From the IMG/VR virus record IMGVR_UViG_3300006923_000027, positions 1 through 56,225 of that record: a stretch of 56,225 nucleotides of DNA. One strand, 5' to 3'. Shown in pieces: positions 238-52,473 of the stretch. The first letter of the stretch is position 1. Each line of letters starts with the position of its first letter. Both the position numbers and the translations under genes were made by a program. Below the pieces are notes generated by a model that was given only the letters and a program-made list of their open reading frames with translations, was not told the origin of the DNA and made no database searches. This DNA comes from a virus.

Positions 238-301
238 TTACCCCCGTAGGGGGTAATCTTTTGTTCAATGTAATTGAAATTAAATTTAGATGTGTTATAA
301 T
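238..301 (+). promoter_or_regulatory. palindrome plus promoter, unit 1
   Basis: Palindrome at 238-256 (GTA centre), -35 TTGAAA at 274-279, extended -10 TGTTATAAT ending at 301, spacer 16. The module is 64 nt long. It is almost identical in sequence to unit 3, although the genes they drive are unrelated. Confidence 0.85.
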
Positions 302-332
302 ATAAGTACCTATTCAACATAAAGGAGAAAAT

Positions 333-746
333 ATGAATTTACAAGATTGTATGCCATGTGAAGAGTCTGAATTGCACCCTGCACTTAAGTCTATAGTAGA
401 GGCATTAGATGAAACAATGAAAAGCAATAAGGTGATTCCTAACAAAACTGCTGATGATTTATTCAACGAAACAAAATTTTTAATAAAAAGATTGTGGAAT
501 TACGCATTACTTATGAATAAACCAATGTGCCTAGTAACTAACCATTGTGCCTTTGGTATGGTCATTGTCTGTTCCAAAGATGAAAACGGACAAATGCTAT
601 GGAACAATCAACAGATACCAGAAAATATGTGTGGGATTGTTGCCAAGCATGTATCTACTTTTCCAGAGATGGTTACTTGTGATAGATATCATGAGCTGTG
701 GACAGTAAACTATCTTCAAAAAAGCATGGGTGGACACGAACAATAA
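333..746 (+). CDS. unknown 137-aa protein, first complete unit of the palindrome battery
   Basis: The gene follows its own promoter and a good AAAGGAG site six to seven bases before ATG. The product has several cysteines (CMPCEE near the N-terminus, further Cys in the middle) and an NHCAFGMVIVCSKDENG segment that looks like a beta-hairpin. No signal peptide or membrane segment is seen. I do not recognise the family. As a separately promoted small gene in the battery it is a candidate early or host-interaction protein; that role is inferred from layout only. Confidence 0.85.
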   Translation: MNLQDCMPCEESELHPALKSIVEALDETMKSNKVIPNKTADDLFNETKFLIKRLWNYALLMNKPMCLVTNHCAFGMVIVCSKDENGQMLWNNQQIPENMCGIVAKHVSTFPEMVTCDRYHELWTVNYLQKSMGGHEQ

Positions 747-764
747 AGTGTAAACTTATTTCAT

Positions 765-794
765 AAGGGAGAGTCAAATCTCCCTTTGTGTTTT
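765..794 (+). terminator. intrinsic terminator after 333-746
   Basis: AAGGGAGA (765-772), six-base loop, TCTCCCTT (779-786), then TGTGTTTT. It ends just before the palindrome at 797. Confidence 0.75.
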
Positions 795-796
795 CG

Positions 797-861
797 TTAC
801 CCCCGTAGGGGGTAACATTTCTTTCAGATTAGTTTACATACGTGTGTATGTGTGTTACAAT
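797..861 (+). promoter_or_regulatory. palindrome plus promoter, unit 2
   Basis: Palindrome at 797-815 (GTA centre), -35 TTTACA at 833-838, extended -10 TGTTACAAT ending at 861, spacer 17. Module length is 65 nt, the battery standard. Confidence 0.85.
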
Positions 862-890
862 ATATATATCAATAAAACAAAGAGGTTATT

Positions 891-1259
891 ATGACAAACT
901 TAGCAACAATCAAACAACAATTGGAAAATGAAATAAAAAGACTAGAGGAAGAACTTGAGAATCTAAAAATAGACCAAAGCGAAAGAGGTAATAAACTTAT
1001 AGATTCTTTCAAAGAACAGAATATAGACTTTATTAAAAGTTGTTTTGGAAAAAGAGAATATGAAGTCATAGAAGATGAAATTGAATTTGATTATAATTTT
1101 GACACTGAGTGTGTTATAATATCTGCAAGTTTAACATTTGTTGATTTAACCCTTAATAACAATGATAAATATAAAGTTGAGATAAAGTCTATAACTACAG
1201 AATTTAATGAGTTTAGCCAACAAATATATATTTATATATCTGTCTCTTGGAGAGGATAA
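891..1259 (+). CDS. unknown 122-aa protein with N-terminal coiled coil
   Basis: ATG follows AGAGG. Residues about 5-35 are rich in Leu/Glu/Lys with heptad spacing (LENEIKRLEEELENLKID), which reads as a coiled coil. The C-terminal half alternates hydrophobic and polar residues and looks like beta strands, ending ISVSWRG. A long antisense frame over the coiled-coil region is a shadow. Function is not recognised. It is the only gene between the palindromes at 797 and 1293. Confidence 0.85.
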   Translation: MTNLATIKQQLENEIKRLEEELENLKIDQSERGNKLIDSFKEQNIDFIKSCFGKREYEVIEDEIEFDYNFDTECVIISASLTFVDLTLNNNDKYKVEIKSITTEFNEFSQQIYIYISVSWRG

Positions 1260-1292
1260 AGCGAGGAGGTGTATGATCGTGCATCTTCCACG

Positions 1293-1357
1293 TTACCCCC
1301 TACGGGGGTAATGTTTTGTTCAATATAATTGAAAGATTTAATTAGACGTGTTATAAT
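1293..1357 (+). promoter_or_regulatory. palindrome plus promoter, unit 3
   Basis: Palindrome at 1293-1311 (TAC centre), -35 TTGAAA at 1329-1334, -10 TATAAT at 1352-1357 with upstream TG, spacer 17. Module length is 65 nt. The sequence from the palindrome's end to the ribosome site is nearly the same as in unit 1. Confidence 0.88.
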
Positions 1358-1388
1358 ATAAGTACCTGTTCAATATAAAGGAGTAAGC

Positions 1389-1877
1389 ATGAAAAAAGAA
1401 AAAGCGATACAAGGTAAAAGAGCGTATGAAAGCTCTATAGCTTTCATGAGTAATCAGACAGATTATTATATAGAGACATGGAACGGTTGTGTAAAAATTA
1501 CTAACATGTCATTAAAAGACGAGCCCGTAGAGGGAGGCTATGGTTATGACATGAACATTGTAAATTATGATAAAAGTAACATACATTATCAGTTTAATTT
1601 CTTTACTTACTTTGGAAATTGGCAATTACAATCAGTTACAAAATATGAGGATAATAATGTTATTCTTTCAATGAAGTTTGAAGATACTGTTTATCTTTAC
1701 AATAATTATTCTATGAGTACTATAATGAATTTTCTTCATAGTGTGCCCGTATTCACTAAATACATCACTTTGAAAGACGGGATAGTGCATGAGCATACAA
1801 GACCATACGGGAAGTTTATAGAGGAAGTCTCAGAACGGGATACAGAAGAATTATTGAAATATATTGTTATAGAGTAA
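1389..1877 (+). CDS. unknown 162-aa protein
   Basis: ATG is preceded by AAAGGAG. The N-terminus is basic (KKEKAIQGKR) and the rest is rich in Tyr, Asn and Phe, consistent with a small beta-rich soluble domain. No motif is recognised and there are no membrane segments. Its promoter and leader are near duplicates of those of 333-746, but the proteins are not alike, so the regulatory module and the ORF have had separate histories. Confidence 0.85.
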   Translation: MKKEKAIQGKRAYESSIAFMSNQTDYYIETWNGCVKITNMSLKDEPVEGGYGYDMNIVNYDKSNIHYQFNFFTYFGNWQLQSVTKYEDNNVILSMKFEDTVYLYNNYSMSTIMNFLHSVPVFTKYITLKDGIVHEHTRPYGKFIEEVSERDTEELLKYIVIE

Positions 1878-1890
1878 AATAAAAACAAAT

Positions 1891-1916
1891 AGTTACATGC
1901 GTATTCGCATGTGACT
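1891..1916 (+). terminator. hairpin after 1389-1877
   Basis: An 11-bp stem (1891-1901 with 1906-1916, one G-T pair) with loop TATT. It is followed only by a mixed T-rich stretch, so terminator strength is uncertain. Confidence 0.5.
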
Positions 1917-1925
1917 TCATCCTTA

Positions 1926-1990
1926 TTACCCCCTACGGGGGTAACTTTCTGCCCCTTTCCCTTGCACGATTGAACAATGCGTGTTATAAT
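1926..1990 (+). promoter_or_regulatory. palindrome plus promoter, unit 4
   Basis: Palindrome at 1926-1944 (TAC centre), -35 TTGCAC at 1962-1967, -10 TATAAT at 1985-1990 with upstream TG, spacer 17. Module length is 65 nt. Confidence 0.88.
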
Positions 1991-2018
1991 ATATTATCAT
2001 TTCAACATAGGATTTAAC

Positions 2019-2345
2019 ATGAGTATTAAGCATTTTACAGATTATCTTTTTCATAACGGTTCTCACTGGAATAGGATTGACCTTGGTAACGGTTTGCAAC
2101 TATCAATTCAAGGCGGCATGCTGAACTATTGCCGACCTAGACAACATGGATTGAGAGCGAATCAATATACCGAGTGGGAAATCGCTGTTTTTAAAGAGGG
2201 GGAGATGATAAACCCTCAATGTAAAAGTTATGAATTTTCAGAGGAAGATAATGTTTTCTGTTATGTTCCTACATTAAAGGTTCAAGAATTATTTGAGGAA
2301 ACAAATAGACTTACAAAAGAAGAAGTAGAAAGATTAGGAAGTTAA
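2019..2345 (+). CDS. unknown 108-aa protein
   Basis: I place the start at ATG 2019 (MSIKHF), after TAGGAT. An upstream in-frame ATG at 1977 would precede the -10 box at 1985-1990 and cannot be used from this promoter. The product contains GNGLQLSIQGG and YCRPRQHG followed by YTEWEIAVF, a pattern seen in small phage proteins of unknown role. No membrane segment is seen. Confidence 0.85.
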   Translation: MSIKHFTDYLFHNGSHWNRIDLGNGLQLSIQGGMLNYCRPRQHGLRANQYTEWEIAVFKEGEMINPQCKSYEFSEEDNVFCYVPTLKVQELFEETNRLTKEEVERLGS

Positions 2346-2364
2346 AAGATAAAAATTAGATACT

Positions 2365-2394
2365 AAGACCATGCATGAGTATGGTCTTTTTCTT
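2365..2394 (+). terminator. intrinsic terminator after 2019-2345
   Basis: AAGACCAT (2365-2372), eight-base loop, ATGGTCTT (2381-2388), then a T-rich tail. This is a clear rho-independent terminator upstream of the next palindrome. Confidence 0.85.
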
Positions 2395-2396
2395 CA

Positions 2397-2459
2397 TTAC
2401 CCCCGTAGGGGGTAACCTTTCTGTCTTTTTTATGCATGTGTGAAAATACATGCTATAAT
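2397..2459 (+). promoter_or_regulatory. palindrome plus promoter, unit 5
   Basis: Palindrome at 2397-2415 (GTA centre), -10 TATAAT at 2454-2459 in the context TGCTATAAT. The -35 is poor (TATGCA at 2431-2436 for a 17-bp spacer). Module length is 63 nt. With a weak -35 and an extended -10, this promoter may depend most on whatever binds the palindrome. Confidence 0.75.
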
Positions 2460-2487
2460 ATATTATCACTACAAAAAAGGAGAATTT

Positions 2488-2751
2488 ATGCATTACAGAA
2501 TCTATTATGAAAACAGGGATTATTTATTCAGAGTGTCGGATAGACAGTGGTATTCTATAGACGGTACAAAGGTTTATGACAGAGAGTTGAGGGATACTTT
2601 GACAAGTTTGTGTTCTCAAAGATGTAACGTCCCTATGGAGAGTTTTCAGCCTGTTAAAGTTGTAATTCAAGATATAAAGAAAGAGTCAAAAAGAAAACCA
2701 AGAAAAGCAAAGGTCAGTAAAAATAAAAAATGGAAATTGAATCTTTTTTAA
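2488..2751 (+). CDS. small protein with KWKLN-type C-terminal tail (copy 1)
   Basis: Start at ATG 2488 after AAAAGGAG; an upstream in-frame ATG at 2440 precedes the -10 box. The 87-aa product has an N-terminal part rich in Tyr and Arg, then a very basic linker (KKESKRKPRKAKVSKNK), and ends KWKLNLF. The same kind of tail closes the proteins at 4609-4755 and 6002-6328. A basic body with a constant aromatic/hydrophobic end suggests nucleic-acid contact plus a docking peptide; both are inference. Confidence 0.85.
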   Translation: MHYRIYYENRDYLFRVSDRQWYSIDGTKVYDRELRDTLTSLCSQRCNVPMESFQPVKVVIQDIKKESKRKPRKAKVSKNKKWKLNLF

Positions 2752-2799
2752 TGACTTAATATGTAGCCTTTACTATTTAATTGTTTGGGCTTTAATTCA

Positions 2800-2864
2800 T
2801 TACCCCCTACGGGGGTAACACTTAACTCAAAAGACTTGTAAGATTACTATAGTCATGTTATAAT
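2800..2864 (+). promoter_or_regulatory. palindrome plus promoter, unit 6
   Basis: Palindrome at 2800-2818 (TAC centre), -35 TTGTAA at 2836-2841, -10 TATAAT at 2859-2864 with upstream TG, spacer 17. Module length is 65 nt. The leader can start with a hairpin, GTATTC/GGATAC, at about 2870-2887. Confidence 0.88.
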
Positions 2865-2918
2865 ATATATGTATTCAACAACGGATACACATTCACTACT
2901 AAAAAAAAGGAAAAAAAA

Positions 2919-3434
2919 ATGTCAAATTTCATTTTTTCATTCAATCAAAAAAACAAACGTACACGATCTGCAAAAGAGATATTTGAGGAGACTCTTTTTC
3001 TTAAAAAGAAAAATGGCGTTCTATGTATCGAATTTAACCTTGTGGAAGATAGAAAAGGATATGGGGCACAATTCATTCCTACTGGCGAATTAGAAGAAGT
3101 AGCACAAGTCCTTGTTGACGCTAGGGACAATGGTATCACAAGCGAAACACAACAACTTTCAACGGCTCAGATTCTCAAAAAATCTTTAATAGAAACTGAG
3201 AAAGGAGAGATTAGATTCAAAACTGAAGATACAAAAGGAAAAAAGCCTACTGTATGTTCTGATAAAGAAGATTTTAATGAGTTTGTAGATACGTTCATGT
3301 CTATACTTCCTGCTATGCAAACTGAAATTGCAAGAGTCCAAAAGGAAATGGGCTTAATTGTAGAAGAAGAAGTAGAAGAAGTAAATAATGATGAATACTA
3401 CAATGAAGAAGATTATATTGAAGAAGAAGAATAA
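2919..3434 (+). CDS. KRTRSA-family protein, copy 1 (171 aa)
   Basis: One of three paralogues (also 4011-4457 and 5369-5842). All share an N-terminal F-S-F-N-[QK]-KNKRTRSA[KT]EIF segment, a central NLVEDRKGYGAQF, a nearly invariant stretch around TAQILKKSLIETEKGEIRF, and a C-terminal helix (LPAM..EI.RVQ). This copy has an extra acidic tail (EEEVEEVNNDEYYNEEDYIEEEE region). The basic start and long shared core suggest nucleic-acid or polymerase binding, but no known domain is recognised. The promoter, leader and terminator are also duplicated with the gene. Confidence 0.9.
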   Translation: MSNFIFSFNQKNKRTRSAKEIFEETLFLKKKNGVLCIEFNLVEDRKGYGAQFIPTGELEEVAQVLVDARDNGITSETQQLSTAQILKKSLIETEKGEIRFKTEDTKGKKPTVCSDKEDFNEFVDTFMSILPAMQTEIARVQKEMGLIVEEEVEEVNNDEYYNEEDYIEEEE

Positions 3435-3455
3435 CATTTGTAGTTAAATATACAA

Positions 3456-3485
3456 GAGGACATGCGTTTGTGTGTCCTCGCTTTT
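3456..3485 (+). terminator. intrinsic terminator after KRTRSA copy 1
   Basis: GAGGACA (3456-3462) pairs with TGTCCTC (3473-3479), followed by GCTTTTAT. It is homologous to the terminators at 4480 and 5865. Confidence 0.8.
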
Positions 3486-3491
3486 ATCTGG

Positions 3492-3556
3492 TTACCCCCT
3501 ACGGGGGTAATGTTATGTGCTATAAATTTGTTTGATCTGATTATTTGTGTTATAAT
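3492..3556 (+). promoter_or_regulatory. palindrome plus promoter, unit 7
   Basis: Palindrome at 3492-3510 (TAC centre), weak -35 TTGTTT at 3528-3533, -10 TATAAT at 3551-3556 with upstream TG, spacer 17. Module length is 65 nt. Confidence 0.85.
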
Positions 3557-3607
3557 ATAATATAGCATAAAGTTATATTCAAAAATCACTACCAAAGGGA
3601 GAATCCT

Positions 3608-3853
3608 ATGAAAAAGAAAGTCGATTTAAGTCAATTTGCAGTTGACTTGAAAAGCAAAAGCAACGTTGTTTACATGCTTGAGAATGTAATACAAAGAAGT
3701 AAATTAGATTTGGTTGTATCTGACAAGGAAACACTTGTTTCTTTAATTAGATATGTTATATTGAGAGGTAAATACACTATAAATATAGATGAACTTGTAA
3801 AAGATGATGAGTATATAGTAAGGCTCATAGAGGAACACGCCAAAGTTGAATAA
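3608..3853 (+). CDS. unknown 81-aa protein
   Basis: ATG follows AAAGGGAG. The product starts MKKKVDLSQF and looks mostly helical, with alternating charged and aliphatic residues (SLIRYVILRGKYTINIDELVKDDEYIVRLIEEH). There are no cysteines and no membrane segment. The family is not recognised. It is a single gene between the palindromes at 3492 and 3892, with its own hairpin at 3863-3883. Confidence 0.85.
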   Translation: MKKKVDLSQFAVDLKSKSNVVYMLENVIQRSKLDLVVSDKETLVSLIRYVILRGKYTINIDELVKDDEYIVRLIEEHAKVE

Positions 3854-3862
3854 AAAAAAGAG

Positions 3863-3891
3863 CAGTTATTATTTGTATAACTGTTTCTTTA
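3863..3891 (+). terminator. intrinsic terminator after 3608-3853
   Basis: CAGTTAT (3863-3869) pairs with ATAACTG (3877-3883), then TTTCTTTATT. Confidence 0.7.
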
Positions 3892-3956
3892 TTACCCCCT
3901 ACGGGGGTAACACTTAACCCAAAGTAGTTGAAATATTTATACATACGTGTTATAAT
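3892..3956 (+). promoter_or_regulatory. palindrome plus promoter, unit 8
   Basis: Palindrome at 3892-3910 (TAC centre), -35 TTGAAA at 3928-3933, -10 TATAAT at 3951-3956 with upstream TG, spacer 17. Module length is 65 nt. The leader carries the same GTATTC/GGATAC hairpin as unit 6. Confidence 0.9.
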
Positions 3957-4010
3957 ATATATGTATTCAACAACGGATACAAATTCACTACTAAAAAAAA
4001 GAGGTCAAAA

Positions 4011-4457
4011 ATGAGTTTTTCATTTTCATTCAATCAAAAAAATAAACGTACACGTTCTGCAAAAGAAATTTTTTCAGATACATTACAGCTAGTTGAGCAT
4101 GATGGCACATTATGTATATCATTTAATCTTGTAGAGGATCGAAAAGGCTACGGTGCACAATTTGTTCCAGTGTCTGAACTACAAGAGTTTGCTGATGTTC
4201 TTTGTATGGCACGTGACAACGGTATTGCTAACGAAACTGAACAGTTATCCACAGCACAAATTCTTAAAAAATCTTTAATCGAAACTGAAAAGGGAGAAAT
4301 AAGATTTAAGACAGAAGATACAAAGGGAAAAAAACCCACTGTTTGTTCTGACAAAGAAGATTTTGATGTATTTGTAACTACGTTTATGAGCGTGCTTCCA
4401 GCCATGAAGTCTGAAATACAACGTGTTCAAAATGAACTAGGTAAGATGAATGAGTAA
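4011..4457 (+). CDS. KRTRSA-family protein, copy 2 (148 aa)
   Basis: Paralogue of 2919-3434 and 5369-5842, with the conserved core from FNQKNKRTRSA through KGEIRFKTEDTKGKKPTVC to the C-terminal helix. It is the shortest copy and lacks the acidic tail of copy 1. ATG follows AGAGGTC. Its leader matches that of copy 1 almost base for base, and its terminator is the same type, so whole units were duplicated. Function is unknown. Confidence 0.9.
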   Translation: MSFSFSFNQKNKRTRSAKEIFSDTLQLVEHDGTLCISFNLVEDRKGYGAQFVPVSELQEFADVLCMARDNGIANETEQLSTAQILKKSLIETEKGEIRFKTEDTKGKKPTVCSDKEDFDVFVTTFMSVLPAMKSEIQRVQNELGKMNE

Positions 4458-4479
4458 ATATTAAATATTTAAAAACCAA

Positions 4480-4512
4480 GAGGACATGCATTTGCGTGTC
4501 CTCACTTCTCTC
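4480..4512 (+). terminator. terminator-like hairpin after KRTRSA copy 2
   Basis: GAGGACA (4480-4486) pairs with TGTCCTC (4497-4503), followed by ACTTCTCTC. It is homologous to 3456-3485, with a weaker T tract. Confidence 0.7.
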
Positions 4513-4513
4513 A

Positions 4514-4578
4514 TTACCCCCTACGGGGGTAATCACTTGTGTAACAACCTTGCAAAAACAAGCAAGTAGTGTTATAAT
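4514..4578 (+). promoter_or_regulatory. palindrome plus promoter, unit 9
   Basis: Palindrome at 4514-4532 (TAC centre), -35 TTGCAA at 4550-4555, -10 TATAAT at 4573-4578 with upstream TG, spacer 17. Module length is 65 nt. Confidence 0.88.
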
Positions 4579-4608
4579 ATATTATCACTTCAACAAAAGG
4601 AGATTTTT

Positions 4609-4755
4609 ATGAGTGAATACTATAAACATAAGACAATCATTATATGTGAAAAAACTGGTCGAAAAAGAATACAGTTTAAAAAGGAAGAACGCAAAATAGT
4701 GTTGGCAGAACCCAAGAAGCCAAAAACTGTAAAGGTATGGAAAATAAATTTTTAA
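4609..4755 (+). CDS. 48-aa basic protein with KWKLN-type tail (copy 2)
   Basis: A short gene: ATG at 4609 after AAAAGGAG, TAA at 4753-4755. The product is basic (CEKTGRKRIQFKKEERK, then a Lys/Pro-rich linker) and ends VWKINF, matching the ends of 2488-2751 (KWKLNLF) and 6002-6328 (KWKLNIDF plus four residues). Its own palindrome-linked promoter and a following hairpin make it a genuine unit despite its size. Confidence 0.85.
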   Translation: MSEYYKHKTIIICEKTGRKRIQFKKEERKIVLAEPKKPKTVKVWKINF

Positions 4756-4767
4756 TCGGCTCTCAAA

Positions 4768-4790
4768 AGAGTTGCTATTATGGCAACTCT
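4768..4790 (+). terminator. hairpin after the 48-aa gene
   Basis: AGAGTTGC (4768-4775) pairs perfectly with GCAACTCT (4783-4790). There is no good T tract, so it may stabilise the 3' end rather than terminate. Confidence 0.5.
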
Positions 4791-4795
4791 ACACA

Positions 4796-4860
4796 TTACC
4801 CCCGTAGGGGGTAACTCCTAACCCAATTCACTTGACGTGAGTATAGTAAGAGGTTATAAT
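4796..4860 (+). promoter_or_regulatory. palindrome plus promoter, unit 10
   Basis: Palindrome at 4796-4814 (GTA centre), -35 TTGACG at 4832-4837, -10 TATAAT at 4855-4860, spacer 17. Module length is 65 nt. It is the only unit without the TG of an extended -10. The leader can fold ATATCC/GGATAT at about 4866-4883. Confidence 0.88.
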
Positions 4861-4919
4861 ATAGTATATCCAATCAAGGATATATGAAATATTATATAAT
4901 ATCAAACAAAGGGAAAAAT

Positions 4920-5162
4920 ATGCAAAATATAGATGTAGTAAGACGCTGGACACGTGGTGTGACTGGTAAAAATTCAAATATGCGTACAGACGGGAGTGCG
5001 TTGTATTCTTATGATTTACAAATAGGATATACTAAACGAAACGGTGACAAAATAGTTTATAACTATACTGCAAGTGGAGAATTCAAAACTCGAACCACAT
5101 CAAAGCATGTTGTTACTGCACGTGTTCTAGCCGATAGGCAAGAGGACGTTCCTAGCACATAG
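4920..5162 (+). CDS. unknown 80-aa phage-type protein
   Basis: I choose ATG 4920 (MQNIDV), after AAAGGGA, over the upstream in-frame ATG at 4884, which directly abuts the leader hairpin. The product has a YDLQIGYTKRNGDK segment and NYTASGEFKTRTTSKHV, which resembles short phage proteins with a TTSxHV motif. It is probably a small beta-rich protein; role unknown. Confidence 0.82.
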   Translation: MQNIDVVRRWTRGVTGKNSNMRTDGSALYSYDLQIGYTKRNGDKIVYNYTASGEFKTRTTSKHVVTARVLADRQEDVPST

Positions 5163-5183
5163 TATTTGGAATTTTTATCTTTG

Positions 5184-5227
5184 GAGGTATTCTTCTTTAT
5201 AAGTTGAATACCTCACTTTTTTATTTT
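5184..5227 (+). terminator. intrinsic terminator after 4920-5162
   Basis: GAGGTATTC (5184-5192) pairs with GAATACCTC (5206-5214), followed by a T-rich run. Confidence 0.85.
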
Positions 5228-5231
5228 CCAT

Positions 5232-5318
5232 TTACCCCCTACGGGGGTAACGTATGTATCAAAAAGATTTACTTTTTAACACACACGTGTTGACACGACA
5301 CTTCAATCATGTTATAAT
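5232..5318 (+). promoter_or_regulatory. palindrome plus promoter, unit 11 (long spacing)
   Basis: Palindrome at 5232-5250 (TAC centre), -35 TTGACA at 5290-5295, -10 TATAAT at 5313-5318 with upstream TG, spacer 17. The module is 87 nt, exactly 22 nt longer than standard, so the palindrome is moved about two helical turns upstream and keeps the same DNA face. The leader starts with ATATCC/GGATAT. Confidence 0.88.
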
Positions 5319-5368
5319 ATATATATCCAATGAAGGATATTCACTACTATAAAAAAGAGGTAAAAAAA

Positions 5369-5842
5369 ATGAGTAAAAATTTTGTATTTTCATTCAATAA
5401 GAAAAATAAAAGAACACGTTCAGCAACGGAGATTTTTCAAGATACGTTGCAATTAGTTATGCATAACGATATTTTGTCTATAGAATTCAATCTTGTTGAG
5501 GACAGAAAGGGTTATGGAGCCCAATTCGTTCCCGTTGACGAATTAGAACAAGTTTCTGCAATCTTAGTCAATGCACGTGATAACGGTATAGCGAATGAAA
5601 CCGAACAGTTATCAACGGCTCAGATTCTCAAAAAATCTTTAATAGAAACTGAGAAAGGAGAGATCAGATTTAAAACAGAGGACACAAAAGGTAAGAAGCC
5701 AACTGTATGTAAGGATCAAGGCGACTTCAATGAATTTGTTGATACGTTCATGAGTGTGCTTCCTGCTATGCAATCAGAGATACAACGTGTTCAAGGTGAA
5801 CTAAGTAAGATGAAAGCTACAGATAGTGATACAGAAGAATAA
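5369..5842 (+). CDS. KRTRSA-family protein, copy 3 (157 aa)
   Basis: Start chosen at ATG 5369 (MSKNFVFSFN) after AGAGGT; an in-frame ATG at 5330 lies inside the leader hairpin region. It is the third paralogue of the 2919 and 4011 genes, with KKNKRTRSATEIF, NLVEDRKGYGAQF and the conserved KKSLIETEKGEIRF core. The tail is short and acidic (TDSDTEE). Its promoter is the strongest-looking of the three and the only one with displaced palindrome spacing. Confidence 0.9.
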   Translation: MSKNFVFSFNKKNKRTRSATEIFQDTLQLVMHNDILSIEFNLVEDRKGYGAQFVPVDELEQVSAILVNARDNGIANETEQLSTAQILKKSLIETEKGEIRFKTEDTKGKKPTVCKDQGDFNEFVDTFMSVLPAMQSEIQRVQGELSKMKATDSDTEE

Positions 5843-5864
5843 ATATTTGTTATTCTGTTATATA

Positions 5865-5898
5865 AGAGAACATGTATATGCGTGTTCTCTTTTTTTTC
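5865..5898 (+). terminator. intrinsic terminator after KRTRSA copy 3
   Basis: A ten-pair stem (5865-5874 with 5881-5890, one G-T pair) followed by eight T. It has the same layout as the 3456 and 4480 hairpins, with compensating base changes. Confidence 0.9.
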
Positions 5899-5906
5899 TT
5901 ATTGAA

Positions 5907-5971
5907 TTACCCCCGTAGGGGGTAACAACCTACTCGCTTCACTTGACATAACAAGTGCAGCATGTTATATT
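5907..5971 (+). promoter_or_regulatory. palindrome plus promoter, unit 12
   Basis: Palindrome at 5907-5925 (GTA centre), -35 TTGACA at 5943-5948, -10 TATATT at 5966-5971 with upstream TG, spacer 17. Module length is 65 nt. Confidence 0.9.
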
Positions 5972-6001
5972 ATATCACTACTCTAAAAAAAGGAGACCAT
6001 C

Positions 6002-6328
6002 GTGTCATTATTACAAGTTAAATACCGTTCAAAAGGTGAAAGATCAATTTATTATTATAATCAAGAAGAAAGATGTTTTCTAACTGAAGATATGAAACAA
6101 ATAAGTGATAACAAACTTCATCATAGGTTAGTATATCGTATGATGTTCGAAACAGAGCATTGTATAAATAGAGTTAAAATATTTAACCTTACCGAAGAAG
6201 AAGAAACAAAATTAAGACTAATATACGGAGAAGAAGAAAAACCTAAAAAAGCTATTAGAACTCCCAAAGTAGATAATACAGTTAACTCAAATAAGTGGAA
6301 ATTAAATATAGACTTTACAAATCATTGA
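6002..6328 (+). CDS. 108-aa protein with KWKLN-type tail (copy 3), GTG start
   Basis: Translation starts at GTG 6002, seven bases after AGGAG; no ATG is suitably placed. The N-terminal half resembles the Tyr-rich half of 2488-2751 (SIYYYNQEERCF against DYLFRVSDRQWY). A Glu-rich segment (TEEEETKLRLIYGEEE) and a Lys/Pro linker follow, and the end is SNKWKLNIDFTNH. The tail motif is therefore four residues from the C-terminus, not at the very end as in the other two. Confidence 0.85.
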   Translation: MSLLQVKYRSKGERSIYYYNQEERCFLTEDMKQISDNKLHHRLVYRMMFETEHCINRVKIFNLTEEEETKLRLIYGEEEKPKKAIRTPKVDNTVNSNKWKLNIDFTNH

Positions 6329-6339
6329 TTTAACAAAAC

Positions 6340-6371
6340 AACTCTTTAGTTTTTCTAAAGAGTTTACTCTA
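6340..6371 (+). terminator. terminator after 6002-6328
   Basis: AACTCTTTAG (6340-6349) pairs perfectly with CTAAAGAGTT (6355-6364), then TACTCTATT. Confidence 0.75.
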
Positions 6372-6437
6372 TTACCCCCTACGGGGGTAACGCATGCTCA
6401 CACTTGAGTTGACATACGATTGAAACCGTGTTATATT
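6372..6437 (+). promoter_or_regulatory. palindrome plus promoter, unit 13 (RNA 1)
   Basis: Palindrome at 6372-6390 (TAC centre), -35 TTGACA at 6409-6414, -10 TATATT at 6432-6437 with upstream TG, spacer 17. Module length is 66 nt. No ORF follows; the unit makes structured RNA 1. Confidence 0.88.
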
Positions 6438-6443
6438 ATTATC

Positions 6444-6760
6444 GTTAGTGCGTTGTACCAACGTGCGATAAGAAGTTTTTTAATTTTTCTTCCTTAGAGT
6501 TCTTGAATAATAAATTAAAATTAAACTAATTTTTATCTTCGATAAAGTCTTTTAATTTCTTATTTAATAACTCTCAGTGATAAAAATTAAATTAAAATAT
6601 GCTTCTTGTGCCATCTATTTTAAATAAAGAGGCCAGCGTAAGCTGGCAAGTTAAACTTTCCAGAAAGAAAACATCTCTGCATTTAAGATAAAACTTAATA
6701 TATCTCTTAGTTTTTTAATAAACATCCTTTTGGTTAGAGATATATTAAGTTTTATCTTGA
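6444..6760 (+). ncRNA. structured RNA 1 of a three-copy family
   Basis: No open frame lies between the promoter and the next palindrome. The predicted transcript starts near 6444. P1 is GTGCGTTG-TAC-CAACGTGC (6448-6466). P2 is closed by AAGAAG (6470-6475) and CTTCTT (6602-6607), with nested AGAGTT/AACTCT. P3 is GCCAGC-GTAA-GCTGGC (6632-6647), a GNRA tetraloop. P4 is a perfect 23-bp stem (6685-6707 with 6736-6758) whose loop holds AGTTTTTTAATAAACATCC and a CC-TTTT-GG mini-hairpin. The same order of helices recurs in RNAs 2 and 3 with compensatory changes. It matches no RNA class I know. Function is unknown; separate promoters suggest high, regulated expression. Confidence 0.85.
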
Positions 6761-6825
6761 TTACCCCCGTAGGGGGTAACGCATAACCAAAGCAACTTGA
6801 CTCTAGTCTACTAACATGTTATATT
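6761..6825 (+). promoter_or_regulatory. palindrome plus promoter, unit 14 (RNA 2)
   Basis: Palindrome at 6761-6779 (GTA centre), -35 TTGACT at 6797-6802, -10 TATATT at 6820-6825 with upstream TG, spacer 17. Module length is 65 nt. Confidence 0.88.
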
Positions 6826-6831
6826 ATAATT

Positions 6832-7185
6832 GTAAGGATCGACACCTAGATAGGGTTTATATATCAATAACTAGATAGTGTCTACGGACACACACAAAAA
6901 CAAATACAGTTGATCCTTACTCTGTGTTTTAGTGCGTTGTTACAACGTGCGTGTACACGTTCACAAAATCTTTCTTTAATTGCTAAAGATTTGTAAACAA
7001 AACAATAAATTTTCTTGTCACAATTAAAGAAAGATTTAGTTTAACCAGTCCCGCATCCCAGCTTCTTTTAAAATTAAAAAGCAGCTTCCCTTCCAGGAAT
7101 CAAATTAAACAAGATCAAAACTTAATATACTATCAGTTTTTAAATAAACAACCTTTTAGGGATAGTATATTAAGTTTTGCTTTTA
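6832..7185 (+). ncRNA. structured RNA 2, with extra 5' domain
   Basis: The longest of the three RNAs. A 5' extension (P0) is closed by GTAAGGATC (6832-6840) and GATCCTTAC (6912-6920), and contains GTGTC-TACG-GACAC (6878-6891) with a UNCG-type loop. P1 is GTGCGTTG-TTA-CAACGTGC (6932-6950). P2 is a perfect 17-bp stem (6966-6982 with 7021-7037). P3 is AGCT-CTTTT/AAAAG-AGCT (7060-7086). P4 is 19 bp (7116-7134 with 7161-7179), with loop AGTTTTTAAATAAACAACC and a CCT-TTT-AGG mini-hairpin. No ORF is present. It is flanked by palindromes at 6761 and 7186. Confidence 0.85.
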
Positions 7186-7250
7186 TTACCCCCTACGGGG
7201 GTAAAGCGATACACACACGTATTGACACAACATATCATATATGTTATATT
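7186..7250 (+). promoter_or_regulatory. palindrome plus promoter, unit 15 (RNA 3)
   Basis: Palindrome at 7186-7204 (TAC centre), -35 TTGACA at 7222-7227, -10 TATATT at 7245-7250 with upstream TG, spacer 17. Module length is 65 nt. Confidence 0.9.
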
Positions 7251-7256
7251 ATTATT

Positions 7257-7534
7257 GTTGGTGGTATGTTGTTCCGACATGCTAGTATTATCTTTTAAAT
7301 TAACGACCGTTAATGCAAATGTGATTTAAAGATCATTCTGATTTTTAAACTAAAATAAACACATTGCGCAATCACTTTCGTTAATTTAAAGAACCCAGAA
7401 GGAATCACAGCTTTAAATTAAAATGTAGCTGCGGCCTGCCTGGAATAAAACCAAACAAAACACACTTAATATATATTTCAGTTTTTAAATAAACAATCTG
7501 CCAACAGAGAAGTATATATTAAGTGTGTTTTGCA
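7257..7534 (+). ncRNA. structured RNA 3 of the family
   Basis: The shortest copy. P1 is GTATGTTG-TTC-CGACATGC (7264-7282); against RNAs 1 and 2 its pairs have changed on both sides (G-T to A-T, C-G to T-A), so pairing is kept while sequence is not. P2 is 14 bp with one bulge (7291-7305 with 7379-7392), with nested GTGATT/AATCAC. P3 is CAGCT/AGCTG (7408-7431). P4 is 24 bp with one G-T pair (7456-7479 with 7509-7532), with loop AGTTTTTAAATAAACAATC and a TCTG-CCAA-CAGA mini-hairpin. Confidence 0.85.
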
Positions 7535-7553
7535 TTACCCCCGTAGGGGGTAT
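7535..7553. repeat. terminal palindrome without a promoter (copy 16)
   Basis: The last palindrome (GTA centre) ends in TAT instead of TAA. No -35/-10 pair follows at the standard spacing. It marks the right end of the battery; I found no further copies to the end of the window. Confidence 0.85.
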
Positions 7554-7629
7554 TACTTCATTCTTGTAGTTATATCATTTTATTTATGTAGTTTGTTCAG
7601 ATAAAATAATAAAGTAAAGAATGAAGTGA
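7553..7629 (+). other. long-range hairpin in noncoding DNA
   Basis: TTACTTCATTCTT (7553-7565) can pair with AAGAATGAAGTGA (7617-7629), 13 bp with one G-T pair and a 51-base AT-rich loop. No promoter or ORF is evident inside. From about 7630 to 7740 I see no further gene or obvious structure. Confidence 0.4.
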
Positions 7630-7743
7630 TGTATATTAAAAATCAATATAGGCGATCATATATGCGTTTATATTCCTGCACAAATTTTTCAGGTGGGTTA
7701 TGTACGCACACAAGAAAAAGGTGGTAAATATAAGCCATATTGC

Positions 7744-7772
7744 TTGACAAGGGATAGAATATAGGTTATTAT
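7744..7772 (+). promoter_or_regulatory. promoter upstream of a noncoding stretch
   Basis: TTGACA at 7744-7749, 17-bp spacer, TATTAT at 7767-7772. No palindrome is present. Transcription would start near 7779, about 175 bases before the next ORF. Confidence 0.55.
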
Positions 7773-7778
7773 TTATGT

Positions 7779-7945
7779 ATAGCGAATTGAACGTCACTTT
7801 TCAAGATTGTAGAAATACTATAAGAAAGAATTTAAGTATTCCTATTAAGAGATGTGAGACACACAAAGTGATGATCAATCAATGATAAAAACAATACAGA
7901 ATATAGAGGGTTTAATTTATTCTGTATAGCCTTTCACACTTTGGA
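7779..7945 (+). ncRNA. possible structured leader or small RNA
   Basis: It follows the 7744 promoter. CAAAGTG (7864-7870) pairs with CACTTTG (7937-7943) and encloses ATACAGAATA/TATTCTGTAT (7894-7903 with 7918-7927). This is either a 5' leader of the 7955 ORF or a separate RNA. It does not share P1-P4 with RNAs 1-3. Confidence 0.45.
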
Positions 7946-7954
7946 AAAACATTT

Positions 7955-8179
7955 ATGAATAAAAATAAACCATCATACAGATCAGATCAATTAGGTATAC
8001 ATGTGCGTATCTGTTTAATGTTATTGCAAGGTTTATTATTAAGTTCATTATTGTTTTATGGGGGTATTAGTTTTTATAAAAGTGTAAGAAAAGAAACGAT
8101 TAAATTGATGTATATAAATTATATAAAGGGGAAGTATCAAACGATTATTAAAATAAATGATATGTTGAGTCTGTTATAG
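7955..8179 (+). CDS. possible small membrane protein (74 aa)
   Basis: Residues about 19-41 (CLMLLQGLLLSSLLFYGGIS region) form one membrane segment after a short basic N-terminus; a Lys/Arg-rich tail follows. The ribosome site (TTGGAA) is weak, and the ORF lies in otherwise noncoding DNA between two RNA structures, so it may not be translated. Confidence 0.45.
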   Translation: MNKNKPSYRSDQLGIHVRICLMLLQGLLLSSLLFYGGISFYKSVRKETIKLMYINYIKGKYQTIIKINDMLSLL

Positions 8180-8206
8180 TATAGAGATTCCATATCAGTT
8201 TTTTTT

Positions 8207-8307
8207 GGGCATACAAAGAAATAGACATTTTTCCTTTTTTAGAAGTAGTGATTTAAAAAAATAAAACAAAAATAATGTTTATAACTCTTTGTATGCCCTT
8301 TTTTATT
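8207..8307 (+). terminator. long-loop terminator
   Basis: GGGCATACAAAGA (8207-8219) pairs perfectly with TCTTTGTATGCCC (8286-8298), followed by a run of T. The 66-base loop is unusual. It could close the transcript started at 7744. Confidence 0.6.
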
Positions 8308-8657
8308 ATAAGCAGAAATAAATAAAGAGTCAGAATAAATAAAAAAATAACAAATAAATCTTGAACGCTCTTTATAAAAAATCTAAAGAAATTAAAACGG
8401 GATATAAAAATATATATATAATATACATGAGAGGCATGAATAATAAATAAAGTATATCATGTATATATATAATACATCATAAAAAATACAAGAAAAAAAC
8501 TAAGAAAGTATTTGCCTATTTATAATAGGGGGGATAAAATAAATAAATAGGCTATTAATGCAGAGTAATGGAAAGACAAATAAATTCACATACGTGCGTG
8601 TGTGAATAAGAAATAAGTTTATATACATACACATGTGTGTACACATAAGGGTCAAAT
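8308..8657. other. gene-free AT-rich stretch with small palindromes
   Basis: No credible ORF. Inverted repeats: GCCTATTTAT (8514-8523) with ATAAATAGGC (8543-8552), and TTCACATAC (8585-8593) with GTGTGTGAA (8598-8606). Alternating purine-pyrimidine tracts occur near 8400-8475 and 8620-8650. It may hold the promoter of the 8658 operon, but I cannot assign one. Confidence 0.4.
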
Positions 8658-9056
8658 ATGAATGAAATGTTATTTTTAATTGTTGAGGGAATAGATTTAA
8701 ACCAAGAGTATTATGGTTTTGATGAACCTGATGATATAGAACATAAAGTAATGAAGCATTATGAATCATCAGAAGAATTTTCAATTGAAATAGACAAAGA
8801 AGAAATTGGTGCTTATTATTTAAAGAGAAGAAATATAAAACCTTTGCATATAGTTTTTGATAGGGGTTGGATTATATTTAAAATAAGTCAAGAGGATTTA
8901 TCAAAGGATATGTCAAACAAAGACTATATATCAGATTTTGTATTATCTTTAATTATATTTTTAAAAGCAGAGAAAGAGAGACAAGAGGAAGAAAGAATAA
9001 GACTTGCTGAGGAAAGCAAGAAGAAAAAAGAGATCCCTAACTTTGAGTGGTTATAA
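8658..9056 (+). CDS. unknown 132-aa acidic protein
   Basis: ATG follows AAGGGT. The product is acidic, with a C-terminal charged helix rich in Glu/Lys/Arg (KAEKERQEEERIRLAEESKKKKE). No motif is recognised. It is the first gene of a three-gene run; its stop overlaps the next start (TAATG), so translation is probably coupled. Confidence 0.8.
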   Translation: MNEMLFLIVEGIDLNQEYYGFDEPDDIEHKVMKHYESSEEFSIEIDKEEIGAYYLKRRNIKPLHIVFDRGWIIFKISQEDLSKDMSNKDYISDFVLSLIIFLKAEKERQEEERIRLAEESKKKKEIPNFEWL

Positions 9057-11370: not shown

Positions 11371-11938
11371 CTTTTTTTACACCAAAACACTTTTTTTACA
11401 CCAAAACACTTTTTTTCAGAGACCAAAGTGACTTTTTCTCAAAAACCGAAGTGGTTTTTTCTCAGAATTCGAACAGTATATAGAACATAAAAGATTCTTG
11501 AACTTTTTTACACCAAACCAAAAATAGTGCGTAGGGTTGTATTTCCCACAGGTCAATTTTTAAACCTTTTTATATAAGAAAAAACGGAAACTCAATTTTT
11601 TTTACATGATTTTTTTTTGAGGTTTTGCATATAAGATTTTATGTAGTTGGTGTATGGCTTAAAAGCCAAGTGTGATTTTTTTTACATGAAATTTTTTATA
11701 GTTTTTATATATAAAAAAGTGGGTTCAAAGTGGTTCAGAGGGTTCGCTTGGGTTCGAGTGGGTTCAGAGTGGACAAAGTAGGTTTAAGGAACTAAAGAAA
11801 CAAAAAGAAATATTAAGGGATTAAAGTAATCGTAAATATAATAAAAAGGAGTTGAACATTATGTCAGGATAAAATTAAAATAATTTATGGAAAGAAGTAA
11901 GTTCGAGTAAGTTCATTAAACCAAAGAGGGTAATAGTT
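11371..11938. repeat. gene-free repeat segment, candidate origin or partition/regulatory site
   Basis: There are 568 bases without a credible ORF. First come tandem copies of ACTTTTTTTACACCAAAAC (starting 11370 and 11389, degenerate third at 11408, another near 11502), then T-tracts with ACATGA. Next are five GGTTC boxes starting at 11722, 11732, 11741, 11751 and 11761, and two GTTC boxes at 11901 and 11911. The 9-10-bp spacing puts the boxes on one face of the helix. AT-rich DNA beside phased iterons is typical of origins or centromere-like sites, but an operator array is equally possible. Confidence 0.6.
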
Positions 11939-33576: not shown

Positions 33577-33977
33577 TAGAGTTCAATTAAGCAAAGTCCT
33601 GTTTGAGGGTATCTTGTTGCTTTGACTTCATCTAATATTTTATTATCTCCGACATAGATAGGATCTATTAGTTCACAGAGTTTTTGATCTTCACAAACAT
33701 CTTCAGTATATTTTGTAAGAATGTTTAATATGTTATTAAAGTCATCGTCTGATTCGCAATTAATTGTATAAATATATTTTTCATCATCTTCATTGTATGT
33801 GGTTGACCCTCCACCGATTATTTCTTGAAAGAAACTTTGAGGAGACTTTACATTTAATTCTTCTTGAGCAATTTTATTTCTTATTAAGTCGTCAATTTTA
33901 TCTGCGAGTTTAAAGTTATTATTTATATCAGCTTGATTCGCTTTTTTTATTAGTTTTATTATCTGATCAGTAAGCAT
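33573..33977 (-). CDS. 134-aa minus-strand protein with N-terminal ADxLD motif
   Basis: On the minus strand ATG follows TATGGAG with good spacing. The first 35 residues hold ANQADINNNFKLADKIDDLI, a variant of the helical motif found at the ends of other proteins here. The remainder is acidic (ESDDDFNNILNILTKYTEDV) with three Cys. It is one of only two well-supported minus-strand genes in the window. Confidence 0.82.
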   Translation of the reverse strand: MLTDQIIKLIKKANQADINNNFKLADKIDDLIRNKIAQEELNVKSPQSFFQEIIGGGSTTYNEDDEKYIYTINCESDDDFNNILNILTKYTEDVCEDQKLCELIDPIYVGDNKILDEVKATRYPQTGLCLIELY

Positions 33978-34037
33978 TTTACAATCTCCATATTTATAGT
34001 AAGTAAATATATTAGTAACAAAAAGGTTTAAAAAACA

Positions 34038-46056: not shown

Positions 46057-46102
46057 GATTCAAAAAGTGCTAATAAAAAAGCATTATGTGGAGGGTATTC
46101 AC

Positions 46103-46675
46103 ATGGTGCTTTTTTTATTATCTTGTTTGAGTTTTGTTTATGTTAAGAAGATTGAGAAAAGCACATTCCATTTGCAAACCCCGACTTCTTATGGTAGTGG
46201 CAACTTTATAGACTTAGAGGGCAGAACTTATGCCGTAACTGCGTATCATAATATGAAAGAACAGTATATGATAAATAGTGCTAGAGATAGTGGCGTAGAT
46301 ATAAAAAGACTTAGTTATGCAAATCCAGTTAGAGATATTATAATTTTTGAAGTCAAAAATGTTAAGACTGGTGTTTCTTACAAACCACATAAAAATTTAA
46401 AAGAAGGTTTGGAGGTTCAATATTGGTGTAGTCCTGGAAATAAACTTAATAGATATTTCAAAGGTTATATTTCAAAGGTTCGACAAGGCGACGTATTAGT
46501 TCAAGGTTATGCTTGGATGGGTTGTTCTGGTGGACTGGTATTCGATATGGATGGCGGTTTAATAGGATTAGTTACAGGAATCTCTATTAAAAGAGATAAA
46601 CAAGGTGGCATTGTGTTGGCAGAGAATGAAGTTTACATTAGTTTAATAGAGAAAAAAGATTTTTATGGAGGTTAA
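46103..46675 (+). CDS. trypsin-like serine protease, probable lipoprotein (190 aa)
   Basis: I place the start at ATG 46103, seven bases after GGAGGG; the in-frame start at 46067 lies before that site. Residues 1-8 (MVLFLLSC) look like a very short lipobox signal. The catalytic triad fits S1 proteases: His49 in AVTAYHN, Asp78 in NPVRDIIIF, Ser142 in GCSGG. A periplasmic or envelope protease would be unusual cargo for a phage. Its stop directly abuts the vWA gene. Confidence 0.82.
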   Translation: MVLFLLSCLSFVYVKKIEKSTFHLQTPTSYGSGNFIDLEGRTYAVTAYHNMKEQYMINSARDSGVDIKRLSYANPVRDIIIFEVKNVKTGVSYKPHKNLKEGLEVQYWCSPGNKLNRYFKGYISKVRQGDVLVQGYAWMGCSGGLVFDMDGGLIGLVTGISIKRDKQGGIVLAENEVYISLIEKKDFYGG

Positions 46676-48898: not shown

Positions 48899-49404
48899 GA
48901 ATTTGGATAAGGGTTTGCTTGAGTTGCCTTTCTATACTTAGGATGGTTATTAAGAAATCCAGACTTCTTATAAAAAGTAAATATAGCAAATCCTGACATC
49001 TCTTTATTTTGTGTGCTCCAAACTATATTGCCTGTAAAGTCAGCTGTAGTTGAAGTTAAAACATTCTTGCCTAGACCTTTATTTATTCCAAAGTCTCCTG
49101 TTTGAGCAGGTAAAGTCATAAATACTCTGGCGTCTGCTGACCCGTCATTTGTTTCATAAGCCAAATTGACTTCTCCGTTAGTTGTGTTGCTTGCATCAGA
49201 AAAAGAATATTTAACATGAGTTAAAACAAGTTCAACTTGTGTCGCAGCATTAGTAACATTAGTATCGTAAGTAGAAATATCAGTTGTATGATGAATAAGT
49301 ATCTCATCATAATTAGGAACTTGAACATCTTCTAGTGATAAATAGACTGCAACAATTTGGTCATTATCAACTAAAACTTTTCTTATGTATTCTCCAGTAG
49401 CCAT
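48895..49404 (-). CDS. probable phage structural protein (169 aa), minus strand
   Basis: On the minus strand ATG follows AAGGAGG. The product is Thr/Asn-rich and beta-like (VELVLTHVKYSFSD, VNLAYETNDGSADARVFMTL) with no Cys, a composition common in decoration or tail-fibre-associated proteins. It is the second of only two minus-strand genes. The assignment is by composition only. Confidence 0.8.
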   Translation of the reverse strand: MATGEYIRKVLVDNDQIVAVYLSLEDVQVPNYDEILIHHTTDISTYDTNVTNAATQVELVLTHVKYSFSDASNTTNGEVNLAYETNDGSADARVFMTLPAQTGDFGINKGLGKNVLTSTTADFTGNIVWSTQNKEMSGFAIFTFYKKSGFLNNHPKYRKATQANPYPNS

Positions 49405-49451
49405 TTGGCCTCCTTAGTTTATATATATTATTATTACGGTATAATATTAAT

Positions 49452-52154: not shown

Positions 52155-52473
52155 GTTAGATCATATTGCAATTCAAGTTATTTCAATCAAAGAGGCTGTA
52201 GATTGGTACAAAAAAAAGGTCTTAGCAGAAGTTATATATGAAGATAAGGCTTGGGCTTTAATTGACGTTTTTAATACAAAGATAGCCCTTGTAAGACCAG
52301 AGGATCACCCTACACATATTGCTTTTAAATCCAAGCATTTAAAGCTTATAAGAGATAACTTAGGTGATTGTGATTGGGGGAAACATAGAGGTGGATCGGA
52401 ATATGTTTATTTAAAAGATCCTTTTGGAAATGCAATAGAATGGATTAAGCATCCAACAAAAAACGATAAATAA
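52135..52473 (+). CDS. VOC-family (glyoxalase-like) protein (112 aa)
   Basis: GGAG lies six bases before ATG 52135, inside the previous gene. LDHIAIQVISIKEAVDWYKK is the first VOC half; THIAFKSKHLKLIRDNL and YVYLKDPFGNAIEWI the second. His, His and Glu in the usual metal positions suggest a metal-dependent fold. It is shorter than glyoxalase I and probably acts as a dimer. Substrate unknown. Confidence 0.88.
   Translation: MRSLVNELDHIAIQVISIKEAVDWYKKKVLAEVIYEDKAWALIDVFNTKIALVRPEDHPTHIAFKSKHLKLIRDNLGDCDWGKHRGGSEYVYLKDPFGNAIEWIKHPTKNDK

Follow-up and report, generated by a model that had tools for sequence, protein, structure and literature searches.

Three consecutive transcription units at the end of an array of small phage gene cassettes are very probably functional noncoding RNA genes, whatever their mechanism. 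They lie in IMG/VR record IMGVR_UViG_3300006923_000027 (29.6% G+C), all 56,225 bases of which were analysed and are called the window here, and they would encode three tandem paralogous structured RNAs of ~300–370 nt. We favour noncoding genes because the units have near-perfect promoters and no open reading frame (ORF) with a Shine-Dalgarno sequence, unlike the neighbouring cassettes, and because the predicted transcripts fold far beyond shuffled sequences, both whole and module by module. The fuller reading, that these are orphan paralogous RNA genes, probably early and protein-binding, with constant ends and a variable middle, is put forward tentatively, at less than an even chance.

The virus is almost certainly a phage, and the record is probably a genome fragment. 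Nearly all genes of the window are on the + strand. Recognizable products are a 5'-3' exonuclease, a sigma-70-like factor, and an HNH endonuclease, and most of the other proteins have no family assignment. The virus is deeply diverged, as the nearest cultured phages reach only ~25–34% identity, in few proteins. Close relatives of the segment 40820–42325 were looked for and not found, and a tRNA search of the window, which may itself be a fragment, yielded none.

The first 7.5 kb are divided into short transcription units by a palindrome, TTACCCCC-(GTA or TAC)-GGGGGTAA (the C5-G5 palindrome), one copy of which follows each early cassette. It occurs 16 times within 238–7553 (0 expected by chance), with the 3-nt center in both orientations (7 GTA, 9 TAC), and is absent from the other 48 kb of the window. 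Gene cassettes consist of a promoter, a short ORF with a Shine-Dalgarno sequence, a terminator-like hairpin, and the palindrome, in this order, and nearly all 16 palindromes are then followed by a promoter with a TG-TATAAT/TATATT-like element. The noncoding units are the last three of the array (6409–7553); they keep the promoter and the palindrome and contain no ORF. Their predicted features, all on the + strand, are as follows.

6409–6437, +: unit 1 promoter, TTGACA-17-TATATT, TG before the −10 element; start predicted at ~6444
6444–6779, +: unit 1 RNA, 336 nt, no ORF; fold z −9.9 (folded to 6785)
6448–6466, +: unit 1 P1, 8 bp, loop UAC; pair probability 0.79–0.86 unless the RNA extends to 6785
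6468–6609, +: unit 1 P2, a long hairpin interrupted by internal loops; z −5.6 (+) and −3.0 (−)
6632–6647, +: unit 1 P3, GCCAGC-GUAA-GCUGGC; unrelated to the P3 hairpins of the other two units
6683–6760, +: unit 1 P4, up to 25 bp, forked tip
6761–6779, +: cassette palindrome TTACCCCCGTAGGGGGTAA, end of unit 1
6797–6825, +: unit 2 promoter, TTGACT-17-TATATT, TG before the −10 element; start predicted at ~6832
6832–7204, +: unit 2 RNA, 373 nt, no ORF; fold z −9.7
6832–6920, +: extra 5' folded domain of ~90 nt before P1, unit 2 only
6932–6950, +: unit 2 P1, 8 bp, loop UUA; pair probability 0.94
6966–7037, +: unit 2 P2, 17 uninterrupted bp plus an inner helix
7060–7086, +: unit 2 P3 hairpin, homologous to unit 3 P3
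7111–7184, +: unit 2 P4, 19 bp plus 4 bp past a mismatch, forked tip
7186–7204, +: cassette palindrome TTACCCCCTACGGGGGTAA, end of unit 2
7222–7250, +: unit 3 promoter, TTGACA-17-TATATT, TG before the −10 element; start predicted at ~7257
7257–7553, +: unit 3 RNA, 297 nt, no ORF; fold z −10.3
7264–7282, +: unit 3 P1, 8 bp, loop UUC; one pair compensated in comparison with the other units
7293–7391, +: unit 3 P2 hairpin; z −6.1 on +, −4.6 on −
7395–7443, +: unit 3 P3 hairpin region
7456–7532, +: unit 3 P4, 24 bp, forked tip; z −11.1
7535–7553, +: last cassette palindrome, one mismatch, end of unit 3

The initial annotation of this DNA had described three consecutive units with promoters and without ORFs, and the promoter motifs and the ORF scan of 6331–7960 bear it out; of the extent then given, 6444–7534, the three units stand, and the end is to be moved, as the last unit stops at ~7553. 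Judged by their motifs, the promoters are near-perfect and of the sigma-70 type, and transcription of the three units is predicted from them. No ORF of at least 60 aa is present in the units. Hidden small ORFs were rejected as an explanation, since 6331–7960 contains none of at least 15 aa preceded by a Shine-Dalgarno sequence. In layout, the arrangement would fit the promoter-early stem-loop (PeSL) cassettes of T4-type phages, which Arbiol et al. are said to have described in 2010 (cited in PMC4177764) as a promoter plus stem-loop repeated between small early genes; those cassettes flank protein genes and are reportedly thought to help gene shuffling, whereas here three cassettes hold noncoding RNA.

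Full transcripts fold about 10 SD better than shuffles (z of −9.9, −9.7, and −10.3 for units 1–3, with no shuffle as good), values to which the C5-G5 stem, strongly folding by itself, contributes. As 200-nt windows over gene cassettes, which also carry this stem, reach z of about −4 to −6, the modules were folded separately. On the + strand, P2 alone has z of −5.6, −5.3, and −6.1 and P4 alone −7.1, −7.2, and −11.1 in units 1–3, respectively. When ended at the palindrome, all three transcripts fold into P1, P2, P3, P4, and the palindrome stem, unit 2 with its extra domain in front. The 3' end of unit 1 matters, since its P1 is lost from the fold if the RNA continues to 6785. With G-U pairs allowed, the P4 stems of units 1, 3, and 2 (25, 24, and 19 bp) exceed every other uninterrupted stem of the 56-kb window; in five shuffles of the whole window, the longest stem has at most 15–18 bp. 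Other long stems are one of 17 bp in P2 of unit 2 and one of 18 bp at 46075; the latter is an uninterrupted hairpin with a 5-nt loop (46075–46115) inside the coding ORF 46067–46675.

P4 is nearly symmetric between the strands and does not decide between RNA and DNA. The folding energy of P1 is −8.3, −8.3, and −9.7 kcal/mol on the + strand and −3.3, −3.3, and 0 on the − strand, the z of P2 is better on + than on − in all three units, and that of the extra domain of unit 2 is −5.0 on + and −1.8 on −. The asymmetry is caused by G-U pairs; the better folding of P1, P2, and the unit 2 domain on the transcribed strand thus indicates RNA, and the modeled folds support selection on a + strand RNA. We therefore consider it quite unlikely that the region is a DNA-level element, such as a replication origin or a region for packaging or recombination that consists of AT-rich inverted repeats, whose transcripts are primers or by-products. 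AT-rich tandem inverted repeats with promoters are indeed present, P4 folds almost equally well on either strand, and the GC skew drops to about 0 over 6–8 kb; however, the skew does not change sign, G-U pairs make P1, P2, and the unit 2 domain specific to the + strand, and every unit is separately promoted and closed by the palindrome of the gene cassettes. A replication origin as the main reading was rejected on the retained sign of the skew and the strand-asymmetric folding.

The evidence from covariation is concentrated in P4, which is homologous in all unit pairs (alignment scores of 77, 44, and 51 vs. a shuffle maximum of 30). Ten two-sided changes preserve its pairing, five proximal and five distal of a core, with one mismatch in unit 2; they were counted on a structural alignment made by hand on the folds, so that the number leans towards structure, and RNAalifold on a plain MAFFT alignment finds seven two-sided pairs in P4. 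The core of 10 bp, ACUUAAUAUA/UAUAUUAAGU, and the tip, AGUUUUUWAAUAAACA, are invariant in all three copies. The tip is forked, comprising P4a (GUUU-NNNNNN-AAAC, pair probability 0.73–0.94) and P4b (CC/GG, CCU/AGG, UCUG/CAGA).

The other modules are less uniform. P1 is homologous between units 1 and 2 and marginally so with unit 3 (6–10 of 300 shuffles as good), and all its changes are confined to unit 3. P2 alignment scores between copies are near the shuffle level; P2 is unalignable and hence a separate hairpin in each copy, with no covariation. P3 is homologous, relative to shuffled sequence, in units 2 and 3 only. The initial annotation had proposed P1 to P4 in the same order in every copy, with covariation in P1, P2, and P4. 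P1, P2, and P4 are present in all three units, whereas P3 is not a common element; the covariation of P4 was confirmed, that of P1 shrinks to one two-sided change (C-G to U-A), its other two changes being one-sided, and for P2 the claim is wrong. Compensatory changes, as a sign of a new RNA family, are thus seen in P4 (10) and P1 (1) among three paralogues of one genome, and neither in P2 nor in P3 of unit 1.

These data bear on a rival explanation, namely, that the units are functionless promoter-palindrome cassettes that lost their gene or never had one, with P1 and P4 as a generic 5' hairpin and terminator. In gene cassettes, too, a terminator-like hairpin precedes the palindrome, in the position taken here by P4, and 5' hairpins occur in some of them. 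Nevertheless, P4 was not found in gene cassettes and is not terminator-like by a consensus scan, its compensated pairs and invariant core and tip recur over three copies, and P2 is strongly folded in every copy; this explanation is distinctly improbable.

The absence of a known Rfam class, claimed at the outset, holds: none of the 4227 families of Rfam 15, including GOLLD, ROOL, and 6S, matches the window at the gathering score, and what the region 5840–8700 yields at E ≤ 10 is limited to generic microRNA-hairpin and PreQ1 hits scoring well under the cut-offs. In blastn searches, 5840–7700 gave short scattered matches to phages, none over P4 among the matches listed, and 6600–7560 gave nothing of note against plasmids. 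Pattern scans of IMG/VR DNA (the P4 tip, the P4 core plus tip, P1, and the C5-G5 palindrome) and of GTDB contigs (the P4 core plus tip) found no homologue. On inspection, the partner arm was missing in every P4-pattern match, and the P1 and palindrome matches elsewhere occurred singly, in contigs richer in G+C; all these matches look like chance.

A covariance model built from the three P4 copies recovered three + strand sites in the window, with mirror images on the − strand, and nothing convincing outside the three units: 11 other loci and seven whole IMG/VR records scored at chance level (~20 bits, E of 0.17–0.28). Of the proposed RNA family, then, three paralogous noncoding structured units stand, and homologues beyond one genome were not found in the IMG/VR, GTDB, phage, and plasmid scans, so that all evidence of covariation comes from three paralogues of one genome. 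By sequence comparison, the family is an orphan, undescribed within the databases searched.

As to function, host RNA polymerase with the main sigma factor would transcribe each unit from its own near-consensus promoter, which would make transcription probably immediate and strong on infection. P1 would cap the 5' end, and P4 together with the C5-G5 stem would close the 3' end. The invariant core and tip of P4, set in an otherwise compensating stem, suggest specific recognition, and P4 accordingly resembles a candidate binding site with a constant part and a compensating remainder. P2 is unalignable yet always rod-like, and every copy shows a dsRNA-like rod of its own. This suggests that the sequence of the module is subject to different or looser constraints, although an unimportant P2 would explain the divergence equally well. 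We propose that the RNAs may act in trans by binding a protein, P4 being the common handle and P2 the copy-specific module. A possible role, somewhat doubtful in itself and ranked above antisense action, a DNA element, RNase III control, and functionless cassettes, would be to serve as decoy or scaffold for an RNA-binding protein of host or phage origin, e.g., a dsRNA-binding nuclease or a defence sensor. Protein binding is favored because long duplexes are what dsRNA-binding proteins recognize.

An antisense or sponge function, with P1 and P4 as stabilizing ends and with single-stranded or loop segments such as the P4 tip or the A-rich linker after P3 pairing with host or phage mRNAs or host small RNAs, is unlikely. 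It would agree with the invariance of the tip in all three copies and with a 13-nt complement to window positions 52404–52416 common to units 2 and 3, but this match lies inside the coding ORF 52135–52473, not at its start, and complementarity to the rest of the window does not exceed that of control segments (mean of 2.3 13-mers per 317 nt). A CsrA-type sponge was rejected, as inspection revealed no array of GGA hairpins. RNase III cuts duplexes of ~20 bp, and each unit has duplexes near that size; P2 and P4 might hence be substrates that either titrate the host enzyme or allow the RNAs to be processed to shorter stable forms. Since such control does not require the invariant core and tip of P4, we regard it as improbable. 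Like 6S RNA and phage-encoded RNA polymerase decoys, the units would be long hairpin RNAs that could occupy a host protein; they differ from 6S RNA in lacking a match even at E ≤ 10 and the typical single long hairpin with a central bubble.

Several phage RNAs may be compared with the candidate protein-binding RNAs described here. GOLLD and ROOL are structured noncoding RNAs that phages encode and express as separate transcripts; like the PhiKZ ncRNAs, they have no known function. They are 600–800 nt or more in length, usually located near tRNA islands and included in Rfam (PMC12286853). By contrast, the units are 297–373 nt, occur in three tandem copies without an Rfam match, and have no tRNA in the window, a possible fragment. 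The PhiKZ ncRNA candidates identified by Grad-seq form stem-loops, contain no small ORF with a Shine-Dalgarno sequence, and derive from mRNA 3' and 5' UTRs (~100 and ~180 nt; PMC8545117); the units are likewise noncoding with stem-loops but stand alone with their own promoters and are not derived from UTRs. The CBASS-activating bacteriophage RNA (cabRNA), a structured RNA of ~400 nt, arises from terminase genes, varies in sequence between phages, and triggers defence; a host defence protein binds its dsRNA parts, which provides a precedent for a host protein that binds dsRNA-rich phage RNA (PMC10686824). Its hallmark is the binding and activation of a CdnE-type cyclase. Here, the genes are dedicated and noncoding, with no origin from a terminase gene. 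No kinship with cabRNA, the PhiKZ ncRNAs, or GOLLD and ROOL was found.

To our knowledge, dedicated and separately promoted structured RNAs have rarely been described in phage host-takeover regions. If our reading is true, a triplicated set whose ends stay constant around a central hairpin that cannot be aligned would be a clear and testable example of a phage acting on its host through RNA in place of protein. The small size of P4 suits it to structural and partner studies; the significance is limited by the single uncultured and probably fragmentary genome. It is a long shot that they typify a new modular class of phage RNAs with fixed 5' and forked 3' modules and an exchangeable dsRNA-like central hairpin, each duplicate addressing a different host protein or defence system during takeover.

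The array also encodes three paralogous proteins of ~150 aa (2919–3434, 4011–4457, 5369–5842), 74–77% identical to the first. The family has no significant Pfam or phage match, and a search for relatives of this early family found none. As a partner of the RNAs it was set aside and is a lead only (low-confidence model, pLDDT 58; matches to PUR-alpha/PC4-like folds insignificant, best E 0.5). Three otherwise different small early proteins (2488–2751, 4609–4755, 6002–6328) have a common C-terminal tail, K/V-W-K-(L/I)-N-x-F (KKWKLNLF, VKVWKINF, and NKWKLNIDF), which presumably resembles a sliding-clamp-binding motif; for the 108-aa protein at 6002–6328, the structure model was unusable.

Downstream of unit 3, a fourth near-consensus promoter, TTGACA-17-TATTAT (7744–7772), precedes a 74-aa ORF at 7955; the leader following it folds weakly (z about −1 to −2) and has no palindrome. 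In the gene list used, other long gaps without a + strand ORF of at least 60 aa, some with ORFs on the opposite strand, occur at 11371–11938, 33577–34037, and 48899–49451, and the P4 model detects no copy in them. A further gap, 8180–8657, contains a long inverted repeat at 8207–8298, GGGCATACAAAG...CTTTGTATGCCC, with z of about −5 on the + strand. Finally, short 5' hairpins, e.g., GUAUUC-AACAAC-GGAUAC, open several early mRNA leaders (2866–2890, 3965–3985, 5320–5340) and are perhaps a general 5' stabilizer comparable to P1.
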